From the IMG/VR virus record IMGVR_UViG_3300025168_000373, positions 1 to 31,591 of that record: 31,591 nt of DNA. One strand, written 5' to 3'. The stretch is from a virus. Below the pieces are notes generated by a model. That model saw only the letters and a list, made by a program, of their open reading frames with translations, made no database searches and was not told the origin of the DNA. This document shows, one piece after another, positions 422 through 30,561 of this stretch (positions within the stretch are counted from its first letter, which is position 1; each line of letters opens with the position of its first letter). The position numbers were made by a program, and so were the translations under genes.

Positions 422-775
422 TGACTACGCTTTTGGAGCAACTCGCCGCTAAGTGTAGTCAACCCGTAGTCACGATAAGCCCCGGAGGAACGGGTGTCTC
501 GCTGCTGCTATTTGTAAGGTGTAGTCAAGGTGTAGTCACGAGAGTTGGCTTTTAACCTAACCTAAACCTAAGTGACTACACTTAGGGGGGTATATATCAC
601 TACTATACACATACTACTAGTAGTACTACTACCCTCTCTACAACGCTATAGAGCTTATAATAGGGAAAAAAGTGTAGTCAGCGTAGTCATTCGGAGTAAT
701 GCCAGGTTCAAGCCGCACTCTCGTGACTACACTTGGGTGTAGTCAAGCGTAGTCAAGCGTAGTCAAGTGTAGTCA
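422..775. repeat. Iteron array: 13 copies of GTGTAGTCA/SCGTAGTCA
   Basis: Plus-strand copies start at 453, 464, 519, 530, 672, 681, 737, 747, 757 and 767. Inverted copies (TGACTACRC) start at 422, 573 and 724. All share the core GTAGTCA preceded by TG, CG or GCG. They cluster in three groups: 422-472, 519-581 and 672-775. Neighbouring copies are spaced 9 to 11 bp apart, close to one helical turn. This is the arrangement expected of initiator- or regulator-binding iterons. Adjacent copies leave only one or two bases between them, so this is not a CRISPR array. Confidence 0.85.
591..670. other. AT-rich island with overlapping palindromes, DUE-like
   Basis: This 80-base stretch is about one-third G+C by direct count, in an otherwise GC-rich sequence. 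It contains TATATAT at 591-597 and two overlapping perfect 14-bp palindromes, TACTACTAGTAGTA (612-625) and TAGTAGTACTACTA (618-631). An exact TATAAT lies at 656-661 but has no recognisable -35 at 16-18 bp. With iterons on both sides it could be a DNA unwinding element, an activator-dependent promoter, or both. Confidence 0.5.
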
Positions 776-860: not shown

Positions 861-919
861 TTTGGGTGGCCTGTCCGCTTGGAGTGCTGTAATAGGCCCT
901 ACACTTAGGGAGACTCTCC

Positions 920-1156
920 ATGGCACCTGCCCCTACTCGACCCCCTCTCACCCTCCGAGAGGTCGCAGATATTTGTGGCTACCATTATGCGTACGTGCGG
1001 CAACTCGTTTCACGTGGAACACTGAAGTCGAATAAGGTGGGCAAGTTCCGGTACGTCCAGGTGCGTGACTTGCTCGCGTACGTGAAGACCAAGAGCGACA
1101 TTCGGCTCGAGTATCTCGAAGCTCGCCTCCCCATGGTAGAAGACCCTGCTCGCTAG
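920..1156 (+). CDS. Small helix-turn-helix (excisionase/MerR-like) DNA-binding protein
   Basis: This 78-residue protein has one small winged-helix type domain at residues 11-56. TLREVADICG leads into a recognition helix (about 21-31), then a wing, GTLKSNKVGKFRYVQ, ending in RDLLAYVK. That order (HTH, G-x-L-x-x-x-K-V-G-x-x-R-Y, closing helix) is the signature of the excisionase/MerR-like HTH families that bind short DNA sites. The ATG at 920 has GGGAG at 908-912 upstream. The stop codon is part of the Shine-Dalgarno (TAGGAGG) of the primase gene, so the two are probably co-translated. Its position beside the iteron array makes it the best candidate iteron-binding regulator or replication accessory protein. 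That role is inferred. No integrase is nearby, so a true excisionase role is less likely. Confidence 0.82.
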   Translation: MAPAPTRPPLTLREVADICGYHYAYVRQLVSRGTLKSNKVGKFRYVQVRDLLAYVKTKSDIRLEYLEARLPMVEDPAR

Positions 1157-1165
1157 GAGGCCCTC

Positions 1166-3616
1166 ATGTCCAACCTGACCGCGTCCCACGAGCAGATCGA
1201 AGCGTACCTGGCGGCTGTTCTGTCTCCAGACCAGCTCGTGGAGCTCCGGGCGCTCAACGTCCCCACCAACATGGGGCCTCGCACCTTCTCGGGCTTCTTC
1301 AACGACCACTCCAAGCTGGCCCACGCGGCCGCGAACTTGTCCGACCTAGGCTCTTCTGGGGTGTACTTCACCCTGAACCCCCTCAAGCCTACGGTCTCGA
1401 ACAACCCTCGCAACCGTGTCGCCCCCGCAACCCGGGGCTCCCTCACCAAAGACATCGACGTTGAGCGCTCGAAGTGGCTGCTCATCGACATTGACCCCGA
1501 GAGGCCCGCAAAGGGGGGCGCCACTGACGACGAGAAGGCCCTTGCGGGCCAAGTCGCCTTCGCCGTGCTCTCGTTCTTGAACAAGCAGGGCTGGCCGGAG
1601 CCCATTTTGGGCGACTCGGGCAACGGCTACCACCTCCTCTACCCTCTCGTGGAGTCCTCGAAGGTCACTTCGGGGGCGATTCAGGGTGTCTTGCGGGCTC
1701 TGGCCTTCATGTTCGACACGCCTGGGGCCAAAATCGACCAAAAGGTCTTCAATCCGAGCCGAATCTGCAAGATTTACGGAACGGTGGCGCGTAAAGGCAG
1801 TGGCGAGGGTACCCGTCCCCACCGCATGACCTCGCTCAAGGCTCCGGCGGGCGGTCCTGCACTCGTTTCGGCCAAGTTGCTGCTCGATATGGCCTCGATG
1901 ATGCCCACGAGGGGCGAAAAGTCGGGCGCACCGACCGGAATGCTCGACAACTACCTCAGTGAGCACTTCCCAGGGCTTGATGGGCCTCATCCGTGGTCTG
2001 GCGGCGGCCGAAAGTGGGTGTTTCCGGTCTGTCCGTGGGATCACAGCCATGTCGACCGCTCTGCCTACGTGGTTCAGTTCGGGAACGGCGCCATCGCGGC
2101 CGGATGTCTCCACAAGCGGTGCGAGGGCACCTCACACGGCGACAGCGGCGGCATCAACGCCTGGAAGGCGCTCCAGAAGCTCGCGGGCACCCCTTTCAAG
2201 GAGGCTGTTGAGGCCACCATCCTCACCAGCTCGGGCAGGTACCGTTTCACCGACCTGGGCAACGCTCGTCGGCTTGTGGACAGCTACCCGCTCGAGATCA
2301 TCCACTGTGTGCCCCGCAGGACGTGGTATGTCTTCGACGGCACCCGCTGGAAGACAGACATGGACGGTGAGGTTCAGCGTTGCGCAAAGAATTCTGTCGG
2401 GGGCATCTTCGTCGAGGCTGACGCCTGCTCCGACCCCGACCTGGCGAAGGCACTGCGCAAGCACGCCACTCGCTCCGAGTCAGCACGGGCTCTGTCGGCG
2501 ATGGTACAGCTCGCGGGCACCGAGCCCAACGTGGCTGTGACGGCCGACCGTCTCGACCGTGACCCTTGGAGGTTCAACGTCGCCAACGGCACCCTCGACC
2601 TGAAGACGGGACGGTTGTACTCCCATGACCGTACGGACTTCATGACCAAAATCAGCCCCGTCGAGTGGCTCGAGGACGCCGAGTGCCCCCACTGGGATGC
2701 CTTCCTCGACTACGCGATGCAGGAGGACAAAGAGGTCATTGGCTTCATTCACAGGTTCTTCGGCTATTGCCTCACCGGGCTTTGCGCGGAGCAGGTACTT
2801 CTGTTCATGGAAGGTACCGGGCAGAACGGCAAGTCGACGGCGTTGCTCATTCTCATGTACATCATGGGCGACTACGCCATCCAGGGCGCCCCGGGGCTGT
2901 TGCTCGCGAAGAAGGGTGAGTCCCACCCGACTGAGGTGGCCGACCTGGAGGGTGTGCGCTTCGTCGCCAACGCCGAGGTCGAGAAGGGCAAGCCGTTTGC
3001 CGAGACGCTCATCAAGCAACTCACGGGCTCCGACCGAATCCGCGCTCGCCGTATGCGTCAGGACTTCTACGAGTTCGACCCAACGCACAAGCTCATCATC
3101 GCGGCCAACCACCGCCCCATTATCAAGGGCAACGACGAGGGCATCTGGCGCCGCATCCTGCGCCTGCCGTGGGCAAAGAAGATCGAGAAGAAGGACCCAT
3201 TCTTCATCGAGAAGCTCAAAGAAGAGGCCCCTGGCATCCTACGTCGCCTCGTGGAGGGCTGCCGCGAGTGGCAGCAACACGGGCTTCGGCCGCCACCCAT
3301 CGTCCTCACAGCGACGAAGGAGTACCGCGAGGAGATGGACCTGCTGGCCGAGTTCCTCGAAGAGTGCTGCTACCTGGGGGAGCAGTACTTCACCACGAAG
3401 AAGTCGCTCTACATCGCGTACGTCGACTGGTGCGAGGGCTTCCACCAGCGGGCTGTCGGGTACAACCTGTTCTGCCGCCAGCTCTCGGAGCGCGACTTCC
3501 GGGCACAGCCCCGGCGCATCACCGAGGGCAACACGAAGAAGAGTGCGCGCGTCTGGCTGGGCATCGGCCTTCGAGCTGCGGGGGTCGTCACCAGCATGAA
3601 CCGGGGCGCCGTATGA
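1166..3616 (+). CDS. Primase-SF3 helicase (AEP primase + D5/P4-type helicase)
   Basis: This 816-residue replication protein primes and unwinds the phage origin. The N-terminal archaeo-eukaryotic-type primase domain shows its acidic pair in LLIDIDPE (D108, D110), the SGNGYHLL motif (151-158, with H156) and NPSRICKIYG (about 196-205). A Cys/His cluster (C289, H293, H295, C314, H316, C319) probably binds zinc. A D5-N-like linker (about 420-545) precedes the SF3 helicase: Walker A GTGQNGKST near 550-558, acidic Walker B NAEVEKG near 600, sensor motif IIAANHRP near 645 and arginine finger WRRILRLPW near 660. The C-terminus resembles the poxvirus D5 / P4 primase tail. The ATG at 1166 follows TAGGAGG. 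Its stop overlaps the next start (ATGA). No DNA polymerase is in this window. Confidence 0.95.
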   Translation: MSNLTASHEQIEAYLAAVLSPDQLVELRALNVPTNMGPRTFSGFFNDHSKLAHAAANLSDLGSSGVYFTLNPLKPTVSNNPRNRVAPATRGSLTKDIDVERSKWLLIDIDPERPAKGGATDDEKALAGQVAFAVLSFLNKQGWPEPILGDSGNGYHLLYPLVESSKVTSGAIQGVLRALAFMFDTPGAKIDQKVFNPSRICKIYGTVARKGSGEGTRPHRMTSLKAPAGGPALVSAKLLLDMASMMPTRGEKSGAPTGMLDNYLSEHFPGLDGPHPWSGGGRKWVFPVCPWDHSHVDRSAYVVQFGNGAIAAGCLHKRCEGTSHGDSGGINAWKALQKLAGTPFKEAVEATILTSSGRYRFTDLGNARRLVDSYPLEIIHCVPRRTWYVFDGTRWKTDMDGEVQRCAKNSVGGIFVEADACSDPDLAKALRKHATRSESARALSAMVQLAGTEPNVAVTADRLDRDPWRFNVANGTLDLKTGRLYSHDRTDFMTKISPVEWLEDAECPHWDAFLDYAMQEDKEVIGFIHRFFGYCLTGLCAEQVLLFMEGTGQNGKSTALLILMYIMGDYAIQGAPGLLLAKKGESHPTEVADLEGVRFVANAEVEKGKPFAETLIKQLTGSDRIRARRMRQDFYEFDPTHKLIIAANHRPIIKGNDEGIWRRILRLPWAKKIEKKDPFFIEKLKEEAPGILRRLVEGCREWQQHGLRPPPIVLTATKEYREEMDLLAEFLEECCYLGEQYFTTKKSLYIAYVDWCEGFHQRAVGYNLFCRQLSERDFRAQPRRITEGNTKKSARVWLGIGLRAAGVVTSMNRGAV

Positions 3617-22537: not shown

Positions 22538-23957
22538 GGCAGGATTCGACGAGAAGCTCCGTGCTTTTGTCCGAGCCCGCAGAAGGGAGCCAGGACGTGT
22601 CTTCGGCGAGCTCGCTCGCGGGGCTCTCGCCGGACTTGCGGGGGGGCGGGCCGCTCCGCGAGTTGACGACCGTACGCCCCAGATCGACGCACTGAACAAG
22701 CAGTACGAGGTCCTGGGTGCGCTTGAAGGGGCTGCTGGCGGTGACCCCTCCAAGGTGGCCAAAGCCAAGCTCGACTTTCTCGCCAAAATGACCAGTGAGG
22801 CGCGGCAGCGTCTCAACAAGAAGGCGAGCGTGTACTCGGACGCCCAGTACCGTAGGGCAAAACTGCATCTCGACACGAACGACAAGTTGATTGTGCGTAG
22901 TCGAGAGGCTCTCAATGCGCTGGAGCCCTCGCGGCGTGGGGGCAGTGGTGGTGCCGGAGATGTCAACACCGAGAAGGTCAACACCACTTTCTACCGTGCG
23001 CTTAACCAACTCTCGTCGAGCTCGACGGACACTTCCCCGACAGACACAATCCGCGCTACTATTGCGAGCGCGCGTCTCAACCCTGCTGAGCGTGAGGAGT
23101 TAGAGCGCCGGTTGGTCGACAGTAAGGAGGTCAGTCTCCCTGCGGCGAAGCGCCTAGAGGCTATTGGTGGCGAGGAGCAGCAGAGTCCCGAGGAGTTTAT
23201 CTCCGAGTTGATGAGGCCCTTTGAGCAGGACGATGCGGTGGCTGCGCAAGTCATCAACTCGCCGGACCCGGCTGCTGCGCTCAACAGCATCCCTGACGAC
23301 CAGCTTCGGCAGCGTATTAAAGAGATGCACTTCGTGCTCGGCGAGGACGGCAACCCGAAGGTCGACCTCGCGACCGGGAAGTCGATGCTGCGTGAGGACG
23401 CCCGCATGGCGGCCGAGCAGTACACGACTTTGCAGGGCATTACCGAAAGTCTCGGCGACGTGCAAGCCAACATTGACCGGATGGTCACGGGCTCAAGCGG
23501 TGGCCAGTTCTCGGGAGAGATGAAGGAGATCCTCGCAAGCTACGGCGTAGGCTCGACCGAGGAGCTCTTCGCAAAGTACGGGCTCGACACAGCCTCAATG
23601 CAAGGGCGCGAAGATGCCCTCCGGGGCAAGTACGGGGGTGAGCGCGCAGACGTTGCTTCCGAGATTCGCAAGCTGTCCGTGGCGCCGAAGGCCCCTGTGG
23701 CTCGCGCTGCCTTTGAGGTTCTGCAAGACCCCAACTTTTCTTCCGAGATGCAAACGCGCGGGTTCTCCGACAAGTTGTCGGGAGTACGTGCAATGGCCCG
23801 CGAGATGGGTGGGCAGATGCGCGCAGAGCGAAAGGAAACGAGAGGCGCCGCTCGTGCTAGGTTAGCTCGGCCTAGAGTGATAGGTGCGCTCCAGAGGAGT
23901 CTCGATGCCAGACGCGGTCTCGCTGCCAGACACGGACCCCAAGAAGTCCCCGAGTGA
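22530..23957 (+). CDS. Internal/ejection-type virion protein 2
   Basis: The 475-residue protein is nearly all charged alpha helix with heptad-like stretches (SKVAKAKLDFLAKMTSEARQ, EREELERRL-type segments, AEQYTTLQGITESLGDVQAN). No membrane segment is obvious; the glycine/alanine stretch near residues 30-40 is weakly apolar. ACGGAG precedes the ATG at 22530. Its last 53 bases overlap the next gene in another frame. The location between a small and a giant helical protein matches a two-to-three component ejectosome (T7 gp15-like role). No enzymatic motif is seen. Confidence 0.68.
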   Translation: MAEAGFDEKLRAFVRARRREPGRVFGELARGALAGLAGGRAAPRVDDRTPQIDALNKQYEVLGALEGAAGGDPSKVAKAKLDFLAKMTSEARQRLNKKASVYSDAQYRRAKLHLDTNDKLIVRSREALNALEPSRRGGSGGAGDVNTEKVNTTFYRALNQLSSSSTDTSPTDTIRATIASARLNPAEREELERRLVDSKEVSLPAAKRLEAIGGEEQQSPEEFISELMRPFEQDDAVAAQVINSPDPAAALNSIPDDQLRQRIKEMHFVLGEDGNPKVDLATGKSMLREDARMAAEQYTTLQGITESLGDVQANIDRMVTGSSGGQFSGEMKEILASYGVGSTEELFAKYGLDTASMQGREDALRGKYGGERADVASEIRKLSVAPKAPVARAAFEVLQDPNFSSEMQTRGFSDKLSGVRAMAREMGGQMRAERKETRGAARARLARPRVIGALQRSLDARRGLAARHGPQEVPE

Positions 23958-26900
23958 GCCGTCTCCAGTACCGGAGCTGTCGGTAGCCGAGCGTCTGAAG
24001 CAGCTACGCGGTACGGCATCCACAGCTTCTGGGGCTGACTTCCGCGCGGCGTTCAAAGAGGCTAACCAGCTCGAGAAGGCGCGCGCTGCCGGGACTCGTG
24101 AGAAGCAGCGTGAGCGCCTCATCACGCGCTCTGAGTACGACAAGCGCATGGAGACACTCCGCGCGAAAACGCCTCAAGCGCGTCAGGCCCTCGACGCTGC
24201 GAAGCAGGCGCATCGACCTGACCCCGAGACGGCCGCGATCATCAAAGTGAAGGAAGACGGCAACAAGTTGTTCAGCTCGTCGTTCCCTGTCTACTTGCAG
24301 AGCGTGGCGAAGCGTCGGGGCATCGACTTCGACGACGCGAACGCGCGGAACGCTCTCGTCACCGAGATAGTCGCGGGCGCCGCCCGCCCCCTCGACCAGG
24401 GCTACGACCCGAGCGTCCCCATCTACGACCAGAACAAGCGGGGCTTCGACACCGACGCGATGCAGGTGGCGAACATCTGGTCGATGGCAACGCTGGGGAA
24501 GAAGTACACGAGCCCCCAGGAGTTGCGCGAGAGCCTCCCAGAGGACTTCGGAGAGCTCGTCCGAGCGCAGGACAATCTCAAGCGCCTACAGGAGGAGGAA
24601 GTCGCCGAGAGGGGCAGTGAGCGCGTCGTGGGGCTGCTCGGGGATGAGTCGTTCGAGGTCGACCGCACGCTGAACACGGACCTCAACGTGCAGATTGCAC
24701 GGAACCAAGCCCACGGGGCTGAACACACTCTGCTTCTCGCCGACCTAGATGAGACCGCCAAGCAAGCCTTGCGTGATGCAGGGACCATCGCTCCCACGAA
24801 GGAGAGCATGGACTCGGCGGGCATCAGCCCTGCGAAGCAGCGCCGCCTCCTGGCACTCCACCGCCTCCGTGACCCTACACGCCCACAGGACATTCGCGTC
24901 GGGCTGATGCGGACGAGCGACGGTACGGTAGCCCTCGACCTCGGGCTCGCGTACGACGAAATCTACCGCTCACGCTTCCACGCCATCTCAGAGCAACTCC
25001 CCGAGTTGGACTACGCCCGGGTCGTACAGCGGGCACAGAAGGAAGCCAATGCCGTTGTCCAGCGCATGGTCAACTTGAAGGCTCCCGTCTATCATCCTGA
25101 CCCCGAGGGCGCGTTCCGTGCCTACGCTCGAGGCGAAGGCATCCTCGGCAACATCGTTGACGGTGCCCAGATCCTTGCGAGTGTCACGACGTTGGGTATT
25201 GATGAGCTCGCGGGTGACTACACCGACAAGTTGATCAAGTCCGTCGGGGCTACCCTCCTACCGCCTGTACGAGTGGCAGGAACCCTGCAGCAGGCAACAG
25301 GAGAGAAGATACGCGCGGGTGAGTTCGGATTCGTCAGTCACTTCCTGTCCGACAACACCGTCACGCGCGGCATCGACCAGCTTCTGCGCGTCAACCTTCT
25401 CTCCGAGGGCTTGTCGGCGGCGTACGCAATGGCCCTCGAAGAAGTCGTGGACGACAAGGGCTCCTTCGACGGCGAGATTTACGACATCGCCAAGCGCACG
25501 CTGGAACTCTACGGGACCGACGAGCACCTGTTCCGCATTGCGTCACGGGATGACGACCTCGGCACCATGATGTTCACGCTCACGCGAGCGATGGACCCGA
25601 CCGTGGCCCTCGGGATGCGGGAAGCCCCTGAAGAGCAGGGCGTCCTCGGGAAGGCCGCGATGATTGGCGGCGGCTTGGCGGTCATCGCAGGGCTGATGTT
25701 CGAGCCCGATGCGCTGACGATGCTAGGACCTGCGGCCAAGCTCGGACAAGCTGGTGGACGTGCGGTCAAGTTCCTCTCGGGGCTCGACAGTGTAGCCACC
25801 ATCGGCCGGGGCTTCTCCAACGTCGAGTACGACGGTGTGCGCGGGCTCGACGGCATCAAGAAGCTGCTCGATGACTTCGAGGCTGACCCTTCAGACGCGA
25901 TGAAAGAGACGGTTCAGCGCAAGTTGGAGGAGTTCGCCTACGCTGACCCAACAGGGCGTCAGGCTGTGGGTGTACGCGCGTCCGAGATGGGCGCCCTCAA
26001 CAAGGGTGTCGAGGCAGTGGCTCCCGGGCAGGTACCCTCACTCGCTCGCGATGTCATGGCGTCGAGCAAGCGCGCCGAGAAGACCTACGAGGCGGAAGCC
26101 GAGCGGGCTGCGGCGTCAATCGAGAAGAGCAGCAAGGTCCTGAAGGACGCCCCTGCCGAGGTCCAGGCCCTCGCAGCAGATGTGATGGCACACAAGGGCG
26201 TCCTCGATGCCGAGCAGGTAACCAAGTCTTCCGTGAGTGCGTCCGAGCAACGCTTACTGATGGTGCAGAACCGCATCGACGCACTGAAGAACGCTCCGAC
26301 GACTGGTCCGCAGGTAGACGCGCAGGTGCTGAAGGCACTTCAAGAGCGTCTCGCCAAGGTGGACCTCAAAGACGATGCAGCTCGCATCAACATCTTGAGC
26401 GACACCAGTGTCCAGCAGGTCATGCGAGCTGCGGGCGTTGACCCGGTGGAGATGTTGGCCCGTGCGCAAGCACTTCAGCGGAACGGTAAGGCACGGGGCA
26501 TTCAACGCCCCAAAGACCTCGAGAAGTTCGCCGACAAGCTCCGTGAGACACTCACTGTGTCGATGGCGCGACCCCTTCAGGACACTCTCAACGACACGCT
26601 GAAGGGTCTACAGAAGCAGGTGACAGAGGCAGGGGCCAAGCTCCAGGTCGACCGAGGCAACCTTCAGAAGGCTGTGACTGACCGAGCCGCCCTTGAGGCC
26701 CGCATTCAGGGCAATCTCTCCCGATTCAAGCTGTCGAAGAAGAGTCGGAAGAAGCTCAAGAAGGTCAGGAAAGGCAAGGTCACTGCTTCGGTCGAAGAAC
26801 TCGTGCGGTTGCTTGAGGAGGCTGACGGCACGCTCGTAGCAGCGGCCGAGAGCCGCGCAGGAGAGCTCGCGAAGCAAGCCCGAGCCCTCGGTGCCCGAGC

Positions 26901-29900
26901 GTCTCGTGAGCAGGAGAGCACGGCCTTCCTCCGCAACACGTTGCGGAACCTAGTCGAACTCGTCGAGGTTTCCCAGAGCATGGGACGCACCGCAGGGCGT
27001 GTACGCCAGGAGTTCGGGGGCGTTCTGAAGGGCATTCAAGACGAGGCGGCTGACGTAGAGAGCGCCGTCAGCCCTGCGACCCGGCAGGCGGGGGAGGAAG
27101 TACTGCGCGGGGCTGTCCCCCTTCAACGCATTCTCGACGACATGAAGAAGACCCTGTCTCCCGCTGAGTACGACGTGGCTGTCGAGCGGATGCTCAAGAA
27201 CCAACTGCTGTTGCAGCAGTTGTACCGGACCCCTGGGGCTGTAGGTGACCTCGTCAGGAACCAGACCACACGGCGCGGGGTCAACAGCTTCATTCAGAAC
27301 CGCATCTACGATGTGGAGCTCACCCTCGCAAAGGCCCAGGGCATCTGGGACGAAGCCCGCGAGTTTCTGTCGGTGCAGATGGGTGTCCTCGACATCCAAA
27401 CCAACAAGCAACTTCGCCGAGCTGCGACCGAGAGCCGCATCTACACGCGGACCCTGAACGGTGAGGTCAACGAGTACATCACGTACGCCGCAAAGGTTGA
27501 TGGCGAAGACAACATCGCGCGTGCCCAGCGTCTCTACATCGAGTTCATGGACGGTACCGATGTCATCACGCTCAAGACTGCTGTAGGGCAGGAGATGACG
27601 CTGTCGGGGCGCGTCGGCAGTACGAGCCCTCTTGAGCACACGATGGACTACCTGGCAGGGGCCACACGCCTCTACAAGACCCAGGACCAGGCCGACGAAG
27701 CCCTGGTGGCACTGGTGCGCAGCTTTGCCACCGACCGTCTCGCGCGGGAGTTCGTGGAGGACTTCGAGGGCAAGGCGCTCCGGCAGTTCAGCGACGACTT
27801 CCTCAAGCTCATTGATGCCGAGACAAGCGCCGCTGACATCGCCCGGCAACTCCCCGGGCTCATCACGAAGGCATGGGACGAGGCCGGGGCTTCCGTCTCA
27901 AAGAGCCTCGCCAACTACCGGTTGATGACGCAGACCATGACGCTGCTGGCAGGTGAGAGTCGCCTTCTCAAGCGCGTGGCGGGGACTGCCGGGGCGAAGG
28001 CCCACCTGTTCTCCGCAGCGCGTGCGAGGGCCATCAACAACTTCCTCGAAGAGGGTCTCGCCGTACGTCAAAGGCTACCGACTACGCCTGTGGTGGGCGA
28101 CCTCGTCGTCACCAACAAGTCGGTGCAGAGCTTCAACACAGCACTTCGCAGGAGCGTCACCCGTGAAGCTCCCCGTGATGTGCCCGTTGCAGACTTGGTC
28201 AAGGTGGGGGAGCCCGAGCGGGTGGCCGTCCGGGGCTTCTACGAGGACCCTCGCGCGGGCAAGATGACGCGCAGCGACCTCAAGCCCAACGAGCGCGAGC
28301 ACTTCGTAGGTACGCCGCGTGACCTCGCAGCGGAGAAGATGGCGTCCGGCGCGGAAGCAGTCACGGCGTACCGAGTCACCGAGGTGTTTGACCTCAAGGG
28401 CGTGCCCCACGTTCGTTTGGCCGACCTCGAAGGCAACTACGTGGGTACGCGGCCGCTCGGTGAAATGACACTGCGCGACCCGCTCCTGGGCTTCAACGAT
28501 GCGGTCGACGGCATCCTCGCCCTCGGGCTCTCGTTCACGTCGGGTAGGTCGAAGGCAGCCGTCGCCGCAGCCGGTACTCAGGTGAAGAGGCAGCACAGCA
28601 AGCTGGTGGCACGGTCTGTCGACGCGGAGGGCAACATCCTCTACGTCCCGCGCGACATGTCCCGCGACTTGTACGACGCTCTCGACGGGCTTCAGAAGGA
28701 CCTCGTCGATGCCCCCGTGCGCGGGGCGATCCCGTTTACCTTCCGAGATGCTGCCATCAAGGCCCTGTCTCTCCACAAGAAGGCCATCCTCTTCGGGCTC
28801 ATCATCCCTCGAGCTGCGTTCGGTACCAACGCTATCTTCGGTGACGCGACTCAGATGATCATCGACTTGAACGACATCCCGCTCACGGCTTCTCTGCGGG
28901 TCAGCACGTTCGGCGCGTTCGGGTACATCCCGGGTCTTCGGAAGCCCCTGCAACGCACCTTCGATGTCCTCAAGAAGTCGAAGCAGTTGCCGAGTGCGAT
29001 GGCTTCCATGAGCGACCCTGCCATCCGGGCCGTCCTAGAGGGGTCGGACCAGCTCATCGAGATTCGCCGAGGCGGCAAGGTCATTCGCGAGCCTGCGTCC
29101 TCCATCCTTCGGAAGGCACTGGACAACGGCGCGGGCGACAACATCCTGACCTCGGACGCGATGTTGTCCCTGCGAAGGCTACGACGTGACCCCGTGCTCG
29201 GGGGGAAGATACGCGACTACAATCGCCTGCTTGAGATTCAGATGCGCGAGGCCACTAAGGCCCAGCGCGTAGGGCTGTTCCTCAACCTGTACGCCGAGCA
29301 GGGCATGACGGCCGAGAAGGCGGGTCTGCGTATGCGGCAAGCCCTGTTCAACTGGGACGATGCCATCGGCGCCAGTGAGAACGCCTTCCTCGCACGCCAC
29401 TTCCTGTTCTACACGTTCATCAAGAACGCCTTTGCCCAGTCGCACCGGGCCTTGTTCGAGGGCTACACGGACAACCTCGACGACTACATGCGCAAGTTCC
29501 TTGGTGCCCGGACGAAGCTCCAGCGCCTAGAGGGTGTGTCCTATCTGACAGGTGGGTTCTTCACGGGCATCACGCAGAAGGACGAGCTCACACCCGAGGA
29601 AGCTGAACGGCTGTCCAACGCGAAGGAGACGCCCGAGTACATCATCGAGCAGACGCTCATGTCGCTACAGGGCCTTGGGAGAGACCAAGCACGTGTTGCG
29701 AAGGCCCTCACGGGGAAAAATGTCGACTCGGTAGCGGGCATCCTACCCAAGGTCACGCACATCGAGTTCCTGAACAACTACCTCGACATCGCCAACACCA
29801 TCCTGGGCTTCACGGCTGTGGGGGCACTGAATGCCCTTGAGGCACCTACGGGGTTGGAGCTGACGGACTACGAGGCAGACATCGGTGCTGCCAGCCAAGC

Positions 29901-30561
29901 CCTCCTTCGGTACGCGACGGACATGGCCAACCCGTTCTCGGGGGAAGCCCTGAAGGGGCTCGCGTCCCTTGCGGGTGTCAGAGACCCCCAGGCTGCCTAC
30001 GGCGGGACGAGTGGGCAGAATGTGCGCTTGTTCGAGGCCGCGATGCTCACGCACTTCGGGCTTGGTGACGGGCTCGAGGAGCAGAAAGACGACACGCTGC
30101 GCATCAACCCCGACAGTACAACCGGGGCTCTGGCCAAGTTCGTGGGCCAGGCGCCCATCACAGGCATCATGCGGCAGTTCATGCTGCCCGAGTACACGCG
30201 GTTCCGGTTGCTCGATGAGATCAACGGCGGCTACGTCACCAAAGCCTCACTTCCTCTGCTGCGCTTCCTGTCGAGGACTATGCCCGGCGTACACCCTTAC
30301 GACGCTGTCGACGAAGCTCGCATCGAGGCGGGGCCTCTAGCGGTCGAGTACACCGAGGCCCAGAAGGGTTGGTTGGCGGCGCGTGTTCAGGCTTTCTCCG
30401 AGCTTTTCGGCATTCACAAGTACGCCTTCTTCTCGGGGCGCGCGACCCAAGAGTACCGCATCAAAGACGCCGAGCAGTTCATGTCGACGACCGTCAGCCA
30501 GTCCCGCAAGCGGGCCAAAGAAAGGAAGCCGGTCCCGTCAAAGCTACCGAAGGACGAGTAG
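23905..30561 (+). CDS. Giant internal virion / ejection-type protein (2218 aa)
   Basis: This single 2218-residue frame takes up a fifth of the window. It is mainly helical and charged. Apolar Gly/Ala-rich segments lie at about 585-615 (AAMIGGGLAVIAGLMF) and 1625-1660 (AILFGLIIPRAAFGTNAIFG). Long coiled-coil-like stretches run from about 715 to 1050. A motif at about 1812-1844 (ALFNWDDAIGASENAFLARH, then FYTFIKNAF) resembles a block I recall from large phage structural proteins of unknown function. I see no lysozyme, transglycosylase or RNA polymerase motif. I chose the ATG at 23905, with AGAGGAG upstream; a GTG at 23884 is in frame but less well placed. It is probably the largest ejection protein. 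Confidence 0.8.
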   Translation: MPDAVSLPDTDPKKSPSEPSPVPELSVAERLKQLRGTASTASGADFRAAFKEANQLEKARAAGTREKQRERLITRSEYDKRMETLRAKTPQARQALDAAKQAHRPDPETAAIIKVKEDGNKLFSSSFPVYLQSVAKRRGIDFDDANARNALVTEIVAGAARPLDQGYDPSVPIYDQNKRGFDTDAMQVANIWSMATLGKKYTSPQELRESLPEDFGELVRAQDNLKRLQEEEVAERGSERVVGLLGDESFEVDRTLNTDLNVQIARNQAHGAEHTLLLADLDETAKQALRDAGTIAPTKESMDSAGISPAKQRRLLALHRLRDPTRPQDIRVGLMRTSDGTVALDLGLAYDEIYRSRFHAISEQLPELDYARVVQRAQKEANAVVQRMVNLKAPVYHPDPEGAFRAYARGEGILGNIVDGAQILASVTTLGIDELAGDYTDKLIKSVGATLLPPVRVAGTLQQATGEKIRAGEFGFVSHFLSDNTVTRGIDQLLRVNLLSEGLSAAYAMALEEVVDDKGSFDGEIYDIAKRTLELYGTDEHLFRIASRDDDLGTMMFTLTRAMDPTVALGMREAPEEQGVLGKAAMIGGGLAVIAGLMFEPDALTMLGPAAKLGQAGGRAVKFLSGLDSVATIGRGFSNVEYDGVRGLDGIKKLLDDFEADPSDAMKETVQRKLEEFAYADPTGRQAVGVRASEMGALNKGVEAVAPGQVPSLARDVMASSKRAEKTYEAEAERAAASIEKSSKVLKDAPAEVQALAADVMAHKGVLDAEQVTKSSVSASEQRLLMVQNRIDALKNAPTTGPQVDAQVLKALQERLAKVDLKDDAARINILSDTSVQQVMRAAGVDPVEMLARAQALQRNGKARGIQRPKDLEKFADKLRETLTVSMARPLQDTLNDTLKGLQKQVTEAGAKLQVDRGNLQKAVTDRAALEARIQGNLSRFKLSKKSRKKLKKVRKGKVTASVEELVRLLEEADGTLVAAAESRAGELAKQARALGARASREQESTAFLRNTLRNLVELVEVSQSMGRTAGRVRQEFGGVLKGIQDEAADVESAVSPATRQAGEEVLRGAVPLQRILDDMKKTLSPAEYDVAVERMLKNQLLLQQLYRTPGAVGDLVRNQTTRRGVNSFIQNRIYDVELTLAKAQGIWDEAREFLSVQMGVLDIQTNKQLRRAATESRIYTRTLNGEVNEYITYAAKVDGEDNIARAQRLYIEFMDGTDVITLKTAVGQEMTLSGRVGSTSPLEHTMDYLAGATRLYKTQDQADEALVALVRSFATDRLAREFVEDFEGKALRQFSDDFLKLIDAETSAADIARQLPGLITKAWDEAGASVSKSLANYRLMTQTMTLLAGESRLLKRVAGTAGAKAHLFSAARARAINNFLEEGLAVRQRLPTTPVVGDLVVTNKSVQSFNTALRRSVTREAPRDVPVADLVKVGEPERVAVRGFYEDPRAGKMTRSDLKPNEREHFVGTPRDLAAEKMASGAEAVTAYRVTEVFDLKGVPHVRLADLEGNYVGTRPLGEMTLRDPLLGFNDAVDGILALGLSFTSGRSKAAVAAAGTQVKRQHSKLVARSVDAEGNILYVPRDMSRDLYDALDGLQKDLVDAPVRGAIPFTFRDAAIKALSLHKKAILFGLIIPRAAFGTNAIFGDATQMIIDLNDIPLTASLRVSTFGAFGYIPGLRKPLQRTFDVLKKSKQLPSAMASMSDPAIRAVLEGSDQLIEIRRGGKVIREPASSILRKALDNGAGDNILTSDAMLSLRRLRRDPVLGGKIRDYNRLLEIQMREATKAQRVGLFLNLYAEQGMTAEKAGLRMRQALFNWDDAIGASENAFLARHFLFYTFIKNAFAQSHRALFEGYTDNLDDYMRKFLGARTKLQRLEGVSYLTGGFFTGITQKDELTPEEAERLSNAKETPEYIIEQTLMSLQGLGRDQARVAKALTGKNVDSVAGILPKVTHIEFLNNYLDIANTILGFTAVGALNALEAPTGLELTDYEADIGAASQALLRYATDMANPFSGEALKGLASLAGVRDPQAAYGGTSGQNVRLFEAAMLTHFGLGDGLEEQKDDTLRINPDSTTGALAKFVGQAPITGIMRQFMLPEYTRFRLLDEINGGYVTKASLPLLRFLSRTMPGVHPYDAVDEARIEAGPLAVEYTEAQKGWLAARVQAFSELFGIHKYAFFSGRATQEYRIKDAEQFMSTTVSQSRKRAKERKPVPSKLPKDE

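Follow-up and report, generated by a model that had tools for sequence, protein, structure and literature searches.

An iteron array around an A+T-rich island, probably a replication origin, upstream of the primase-helicase operon in a group of tailed phages

Introduction

Replication origins are rarely known for uncultured phages, and the question raised here is whether one can be recognized in the virus record IMGVR_UViG_3300025168_000373 of IMG/VR (positions 1 to 31,591; this whole stretch of analysed DNA is called the window below). Between positions 422 and 775, the window carries short repeats on both sides of an A+T-rich island, followed by an operon that consists of a helix-turn-helix (HTH) gene and a primase-helicase gene. 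An earlier note on this DNA, made from its letters alone, took the region for a replication origin, an operator array of early genes, or both. The analysis described below supports this proposal and clearly favors the origin, which in this case can be read from the sequence across a whole phage group. Very probably, the 422-775 region is an iteron replication origin of the type known from phage-inducible chromosomal islands (PICIs), located 5′ of the HTH-primase operon and, as we propose, bound by the C-terminal winged helix of the primase-helicase.

Results and Discussion

Iterons and A+T-rich island of the window

The 422-775 region contains thirteen copies of a 9-bp repeat on both strands, just as the earlier note had it, down to the coordinates; ten are on the plus and three on the minus strand. 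The copies follow the consensus (G/C)(T/C)GTAGTCA, with the perfect form GTGTAGTCA present eight times, GCGTAGTCA four times and CCGTAGTCA once (464-472). The GTAGTCA core is found 20 times in the window, while 2.5 copies are expected from dinucleotide shuffles. The left block (422-581) is formed by copies at 422-430(-), 453-461(+), 464-472(+), 519-527(+), 530-538(+) and 573-581(-), and the right block (672-775) by copies at 672-680(+), 681-689(+), 724-732(-), 737-745(+), 747-755(+), 757-765(+) and 767-775(+); tandem neighbors are spaced by 9-11 bp.

The innermost iterons enclose an island (582-671) with a G+C content of 0.36 compared to 0.62 for the record overall, a candidate DNA unwinding element. 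Its core (591-670) has a G+C content of 0.325, the "about one-third" of the earlier note; by nearest-neighbor energy, no other 80-bp stretch of the record is less stable. At the right rim of the island there is an element on the plus strand, CTTATAATAGGGAAAAA (654-670), separated by 3 bp from the GTAGTCA core of the first iteron on the right. The earlier note had also emphasized overlapping 14-bp palindromes within the island. These are present (TACTACTAGTAGTA at 612-625 and TAGTAGTACTACTA at 618-631); however, in an alignment with the nearest relative (L002/L071; L numbers designate contigs) TACTACTAGTAGTA is disrupted by a 1-bp insertion, and neither palindrome is visible in the islands of other relatives, so we rejected them as a key element.

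Two smaller features accompany the array. A telomere-like run, TTTAACCTAACCTAAACCTAAG (551-572), adjoins the left block and is shared with L002; none was seen in the other relatives read. Just 5′ of the HTH start codon, a partial iteron-like match, CCTACACTTAGGG (899-911, plus strand; repeat family D3), also found in L002, may be an iteron half-site or the ribosome-binding region.

The array is kept in related phages, and its word drifts

Terminase and primase searches yielded 25 contigs that extend far enough upstream of a primase with at least 53% identity to that of the window; counting the window, 20 of these are distinct. Arrays were sought de novo, by comparing word counts upstream of each primase with shuffles. 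An array of 4-13 repeats on both strands, with a counterpart of the left block, was present at the equivalent place in all 20 distinct phages, and in nearly all of them a single short word stood far above shuffles on both strands; in L080, another repeat supplied the top word, yet a CGTAGTA array was found at the expected place. The iteron word is TGTAGTCA in the window and L002/L071, TGTAGTAA in L037/L073, TGTAGACA in L076, L079, L082, L084, L086, L089 and L099, CGTAGAA in L083, CGTAGTA in L080, TTTGTGGTT in L026/L095, TTTGTAGTTT in L033/L098, TGTTACA in L031/L090, TTGTAAC in L075, GGTTACA in L078 and TTGTAGACGAT in L085, L088 and L100. Since most copies within a phage share one word, the arrays evolve in concert. 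Clusters of exact GTAGTCA are present in the window and L002 only; conservation becomes visible only by the de novo search. Among the findings that would together speak against its proposal, the earlier note had listed a repeat core not conserved in relatives; what is conserved is the array, while the letters of the core differ and drift in step within each phage. In L002, whose primase is 96% identical to that of the window, the noncoding array and the island are almost unchanged, whereas the DNA further upstream has diverged.

The order of elements in the 20 phages is left block, island, reversed right pair, further copies, HTH gene, and AEP-SF3 primase-helicase gene. The innermost iterons are 88-114 bp apart from start to start (mean, 102), and the gap between them has a G+C content of 0.27-0.43, with at most 1.4% of the 80-bp windows of each locus being weaker. 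Two multi-repeat sets thus flank an A+T-rich region, as in origins of PICIs and Staphylococcus aureus pathogenicity islands (SaPIs). A blind scan of 509 one-kb tiles from five near-complete genomes revealed one strong array per genome, always at the present locus.

In 16 of the 20 phages, CTTATAATAGGGAAAAA is the top match of the locus, across several iteron words, and its end lies 1-3 bp, mostly 3 bp, before the core of the inner right iteron. The rim element thus keeps its place next to the first right iteron, largely irrespective of the word. Nine exact matches to it were retrieved from 2.9 million viral contigs, six of them at arrays of the present phage group. The other three (L218, L219 and L222) have neither an array nor a primase and were discarded as chance matches. 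As can be seen, the array, the island, the rim element, their geometry, the downstream operon and the conservation of these features are observed directly in the DNA.

A separate observation concerns the DNA just upstream of the array in L002, where a 12-bp palindrome, TTGAC[AG][CT]GTCAA (mostly TTGACGTGTCAA), is scattered in about ten copies over L002:2937-3335. Other relatives (L073:2948-2981, L079, L102) contain 2-4 copies and the window none; these are possibly repressor operators.

Similar geometry in other systems

The layout published for PICI and SaPI origins is the same: sets of iterons around an A+T-rich region. SaPI5 Rep belongs to the D5_N/Primase_Cterm helicase class, as does Cch2 of SCCmec, and in both SaPI Rep and Cch2 the C-terminal domain binds the iterons (PMC7581432). 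A gene for an initiator helicase of the D5/P4 class (SF3) likewise stands next to the array of the window. There are two differences. The PICI origin lies immediately 3′ of rep, whereas the array of the window is 5′, approximately 400-750 bp upstream of the primase start. In addition, PICIs are satellites that lack a full set of virion genes, whereas the present elements, with their genes for terminase, portal and head, are tailed phages. We therefore suggest that the array would work like a PICI origin and do not claim PICI membership, since the array lies on the opposite side of the gene and belongs to a phage.

Bacterial and phage homologues of the primase were also inspected. A simple 7-mer test upstream of ~75 bacterial homologues did not reveal a comparable array. 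A geometry detector, which had been relaxed after a stricter version missed the window itself and which returned 34 matches in 1760 shuffles, found the layout downstream of the primase in some full-length bacterial homologues (e.g., L108 and L163); in phiSP15-1 and others, it is also 3′ of the primase and less clear. In Bacillus phage phi105 (L199:5508-5678), inverted blocks of the iteron TGTTAC lie directly 3′ of the homologous primase, with inner pairs 9 bp apart and an 84-bp gap; the order of repeats is ++ / 45 bp / - / 12 bp / +, compared to ++ / 43 / - / 13 / + in the window. In mycobacteriophage Angelica (L203:5400-5640), inverted blocks of the word AGCACAGAT are also located 3′ of the primase, and the rim, TTATATGGGAAAAAG, resembles TTATAATAGGGAAAAAAG. 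Both phages share with the present group a gap (84-95 bp) and inner tandem pairs 9 bp apart, but differ from it by the position of the array, by their words and by a protein identity of only ~34-38%. The records of phi105 and Angelica carry no origin annotation at these iteron-flanked islands. Together with the present group of tailed phages, phi105 and, apparently, Angelica suggest a broader spread of the PICI-type layout.

The array of an 8.5-kb plasmid of Thermaerobacter sp. FW80 (NZ_CP037897) lies, as in the window, on the 5′ side of genes for an HTH protein and a P4-family primase. It consists of three GTGAAC and three GTTCAC copies around an A+T-rich 58-bp gap that ends with ...TTATATCGGAAAAAG. 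It differs in its word, in the shorter gap, in being farther upstream and in belonging to a plasmid, and its HTH gene is likened to that of the window by position only.

The alpha primase-helicase of satellite phage P4 recognizes iterons through a C-terminal origin-binding domain, and the repeats of P4 are distributed over ori and crr, two sites far from each other. The primase of alpha is of the TOPRIM type (PMC4234260), unlike the AEP of the window protein.

A wider generalization can be put forward tentatively: initiators of the P4/D5 class in phages, satellites and plasmids of unrelated hosts may share one origin blueprint, with iteron blocks inverted and set at a fixed distance, an island that melts and a TTATAATAGGGAAAAA-like rim that is largely the same whatever the word. 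The word would drift in all repeats together with the wing of the initiator winged helix, and the module could stand on either side of the gene.

Candidate iteron-binding proteins

As the earlier note stated, the HTH gene and the primase-SF3 helicase gene follow the array directly. The first (920-1156, plus strand) encodes a 78-aa protein with a match to HTH_17 (MerR/Xis/BldC-like; 5.4e-8). Its alignment profile matched 4j2n (2.6e-8) and 6ama (2.2e-7), which were also the best Foldseek matches (phage Xis 4j2n, E 0.02; BldC 6ama, E 0.11), in agreement with a small MerR-type winged HTH protein. When used as a similarity query, the HTH gene retrieved only L002, and the HTH genes of other relatives were located by position; in 19 of the 20 phages such a gene is found at the same place, 6-9 nt from the primase gene (L080 is unresolved).

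The second gene (1166-3616, plus strand) starts 9 nt after the HTH gene and encodes the initiator candidate, an 816-aa primase-helicase with matches to D5_N (7.1e-33), DUF5906 (1.2e-9) and Pox_D5 (6.7e-5). An AEP primase-polymerase domain (~1-350) is followed by D5_N (367-516), an SF3 helicase (~540-710) and a C-terminal winged helix (726-802). The N-terminus of the predicted model produced Foldseek matches to AEP primase-polymerases and has a fold like the RepB' and PrimPol structures, and the solved relatives found by sequence were primase C962R and another DNA primase, 7ola. The helicase part of the predicted structure was poor and was not used. The C-terminal winged helix (encoded by 3341-3571, plus strand), a candidate iteron-binding domain, is predicted to have the order helix-strand-helix-helix-strand-strand, and RFX-DBD winged helices were among the structural matches of the C-terminus.

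A Mantel-type coevolution test is suggestive of the winged helix as the iteron binder. Distances between iteron words correlated with those between residues 762-800 of the primase-helicase (r 0.58; partial r 0.55 with the helicase core controlled for). Across all taxa with the same control, the partial r was 0.51-0.55 for the winged helix versus 0.01 for the HTH protein. Among 40-residue windows of the primase, residues 781-816 correlated best with iteron distance, an AEP window being a close second. Phages with TGTAG(T/A)(C/A)A- and CGTAG-type iterons are set apart from the others by a serine/lysine change in the putative recognition helix, together with a 4-residue difference in the wing. 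Conversely, phages with different iterons have HTH-protein recognition helices that are almost the same (VSKRTVQRM), and those of the window and L071 are very different, though their iteron is one base from TGTAGACA. The ~ten iteron words matched to ~twenty initiators form a natural series, in which the protein-DNA code of the D5/P4 class is directly testable.

Several observations weigh against the proposed reading. In five near-complete relatives, GC skew is lowest at 0-8 kb upstream of the array and does not pin the origin, and in the window it is flat. L100 contains merely four exact repeat copies, the left inner tandem pair of the window is down to a single exact copy, and the rim element is weak in L073, L090, L095 and L098. 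As for the binder, the correlation for the AEP domain is nearly equal to that for the winged helix, and correlations between iterons and proteins are confounded by ancestry. Moreover, when the three most divergent phages (the window, L071 and L073) are left out, HTH distances do correlate with iteron distances (r 0.63).

The latter correlation agrees with a variant of our proposal, whose likelihood overlaps with that of the proposal itself, in which the locus is an origin and the HTH protein is the true iteron binder that recruits the primase-helicase, a division of labor between initiator and helicase that is known from other replicons. Tight HTH-primase synteny with 6-9 nt spacing is also in line with it, as is a comparable pair on Sulfolobus plasmid pRN1, where orf56, coding for a small DNA-binding protein, is co-transcribed with orf904, whose AEP-SF3 product ends in a winged helix (PMC4234260). 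However, pRN1 is without iterons, and its proposed origin is a stem-loop 3′ of orf904 (PMC4234260). Given the negligible partial correlation of the HTH protein across all taxa and the binding of iterons by the helicase's own C-terminus in SaPI Rep and SCCmec Cch2 (PMC7581432), we consider this variant rather unlikely. For the HTH protein, possible roles are repression of the operon, bending of the origin or a share in iteron binding.

Promoters and the operator alternative

Many loci have a perfect -10 hexamer within the rim element (TATAAT at 656-661 in the window). The array could thus be mainly an operator, with the HTH protein bound to tandem repeats head-to-tail in a BldC-like manner and with the operon promoter in the island. 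The presence of an adjoining HTH gene in 19 of the 20 phages would fit, and the structural relatives of its product (Xis and BldC) include a cooperative direct-repeat binder. Yet, a consensus scan of the window identified no σ70 promoter in the island by the criteria of the tool, and the TATAAT of the rim was part of no promoter found. Instead, a promoter-like motif, TTGnnn-N13-16-TGTTAC/GGATAC, is located between the array and the HTH gene in 17 of the 20 loci, 0.08 being expected by shuffling, an optimistic expectation since the motif had been spotted by eye before counting. The motif lies ~260-295 bp upstream of the primase start (in L095, L098, L090, L075, L076, L079, L086, L089 and others); the window, L071 and L073 are without this form of it. 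This suggests that the HTH-primase operon has its own promoter outside the array. Thirteen sites on two strands around a 100-bp melting minimum exceed what an operator needs, the recognition helices of the HTH protein do not follow the iteron words, and in phi105 and Angelica, where the geometry is found downstream of the primase, no neighboring HTH gene is listed. A mainly operator function is thus improbable.

We favor an origin over an operator because the geometry matches known origins of the same helicase class, because the island is the local melting minimum and because a separate promoter-like motif lies beyond the array in 17 of the 20 loci. A second, regulatory role of the array alongside the origin is possible. 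If replication starts here, copies of the primase-helicase would bind the iterons, most likely via the C-terminal winged helix, and assemble on both blocks flanking the island; the A+T-rich DNA would then be melted, perhaps from the TATAATAGGGAAAAA rim, and the protein, loaded in the form of helicase rings, would unwind the DNA outward and prime its synthesis. In this order of events, which, like the start site and the identity of the binding protein, we infer from sequence, the HTH protein would be an accessory factor that either represses the operon or acts as an architectural protein on the origin DNA.

Genome context

Matches to the terminase large subunit, portal and major head protein were found among the window genes. 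Since head and packaging genes lie downstream of the array, the element is a tailed phage. The window is probably a fragment, because terminase relatives include many contigs of ~50-57 kb; the full genome is probably 50-55 kb, of which the window is only a part.

Some plasmids use iteron-like arrays as centromeres, and the Xis proteins of phages bind to tandem repeats close to attachment sites. An excision/attachment region or a partition site (centromere), served by the HTH protein with its Xis-like fold, was therefore also considered for the array. Neither an integrase nor a ParA/ParM-like protein was detected among the 19 window proteins scanned, which represent part of the probable 50-55-kb genome. 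The link of the array to the primase operon, and an island and rim that fit melting rather than partition, make such a role very improbable.

No RNA families or tRNAs were found. The largest open frame of the record, a single one of 2225 aa, occupies positions 23884-30561. Finally, the window starts (position 1) 0.7-1.3 kb upstream of the primase, and many related contigs (L076, L078, L081, L082, L087, L088 and L095) have one of their ends in the same range; these recurrent ends may reflect a packaging site, a break in the assembly or the physical end of the genome.
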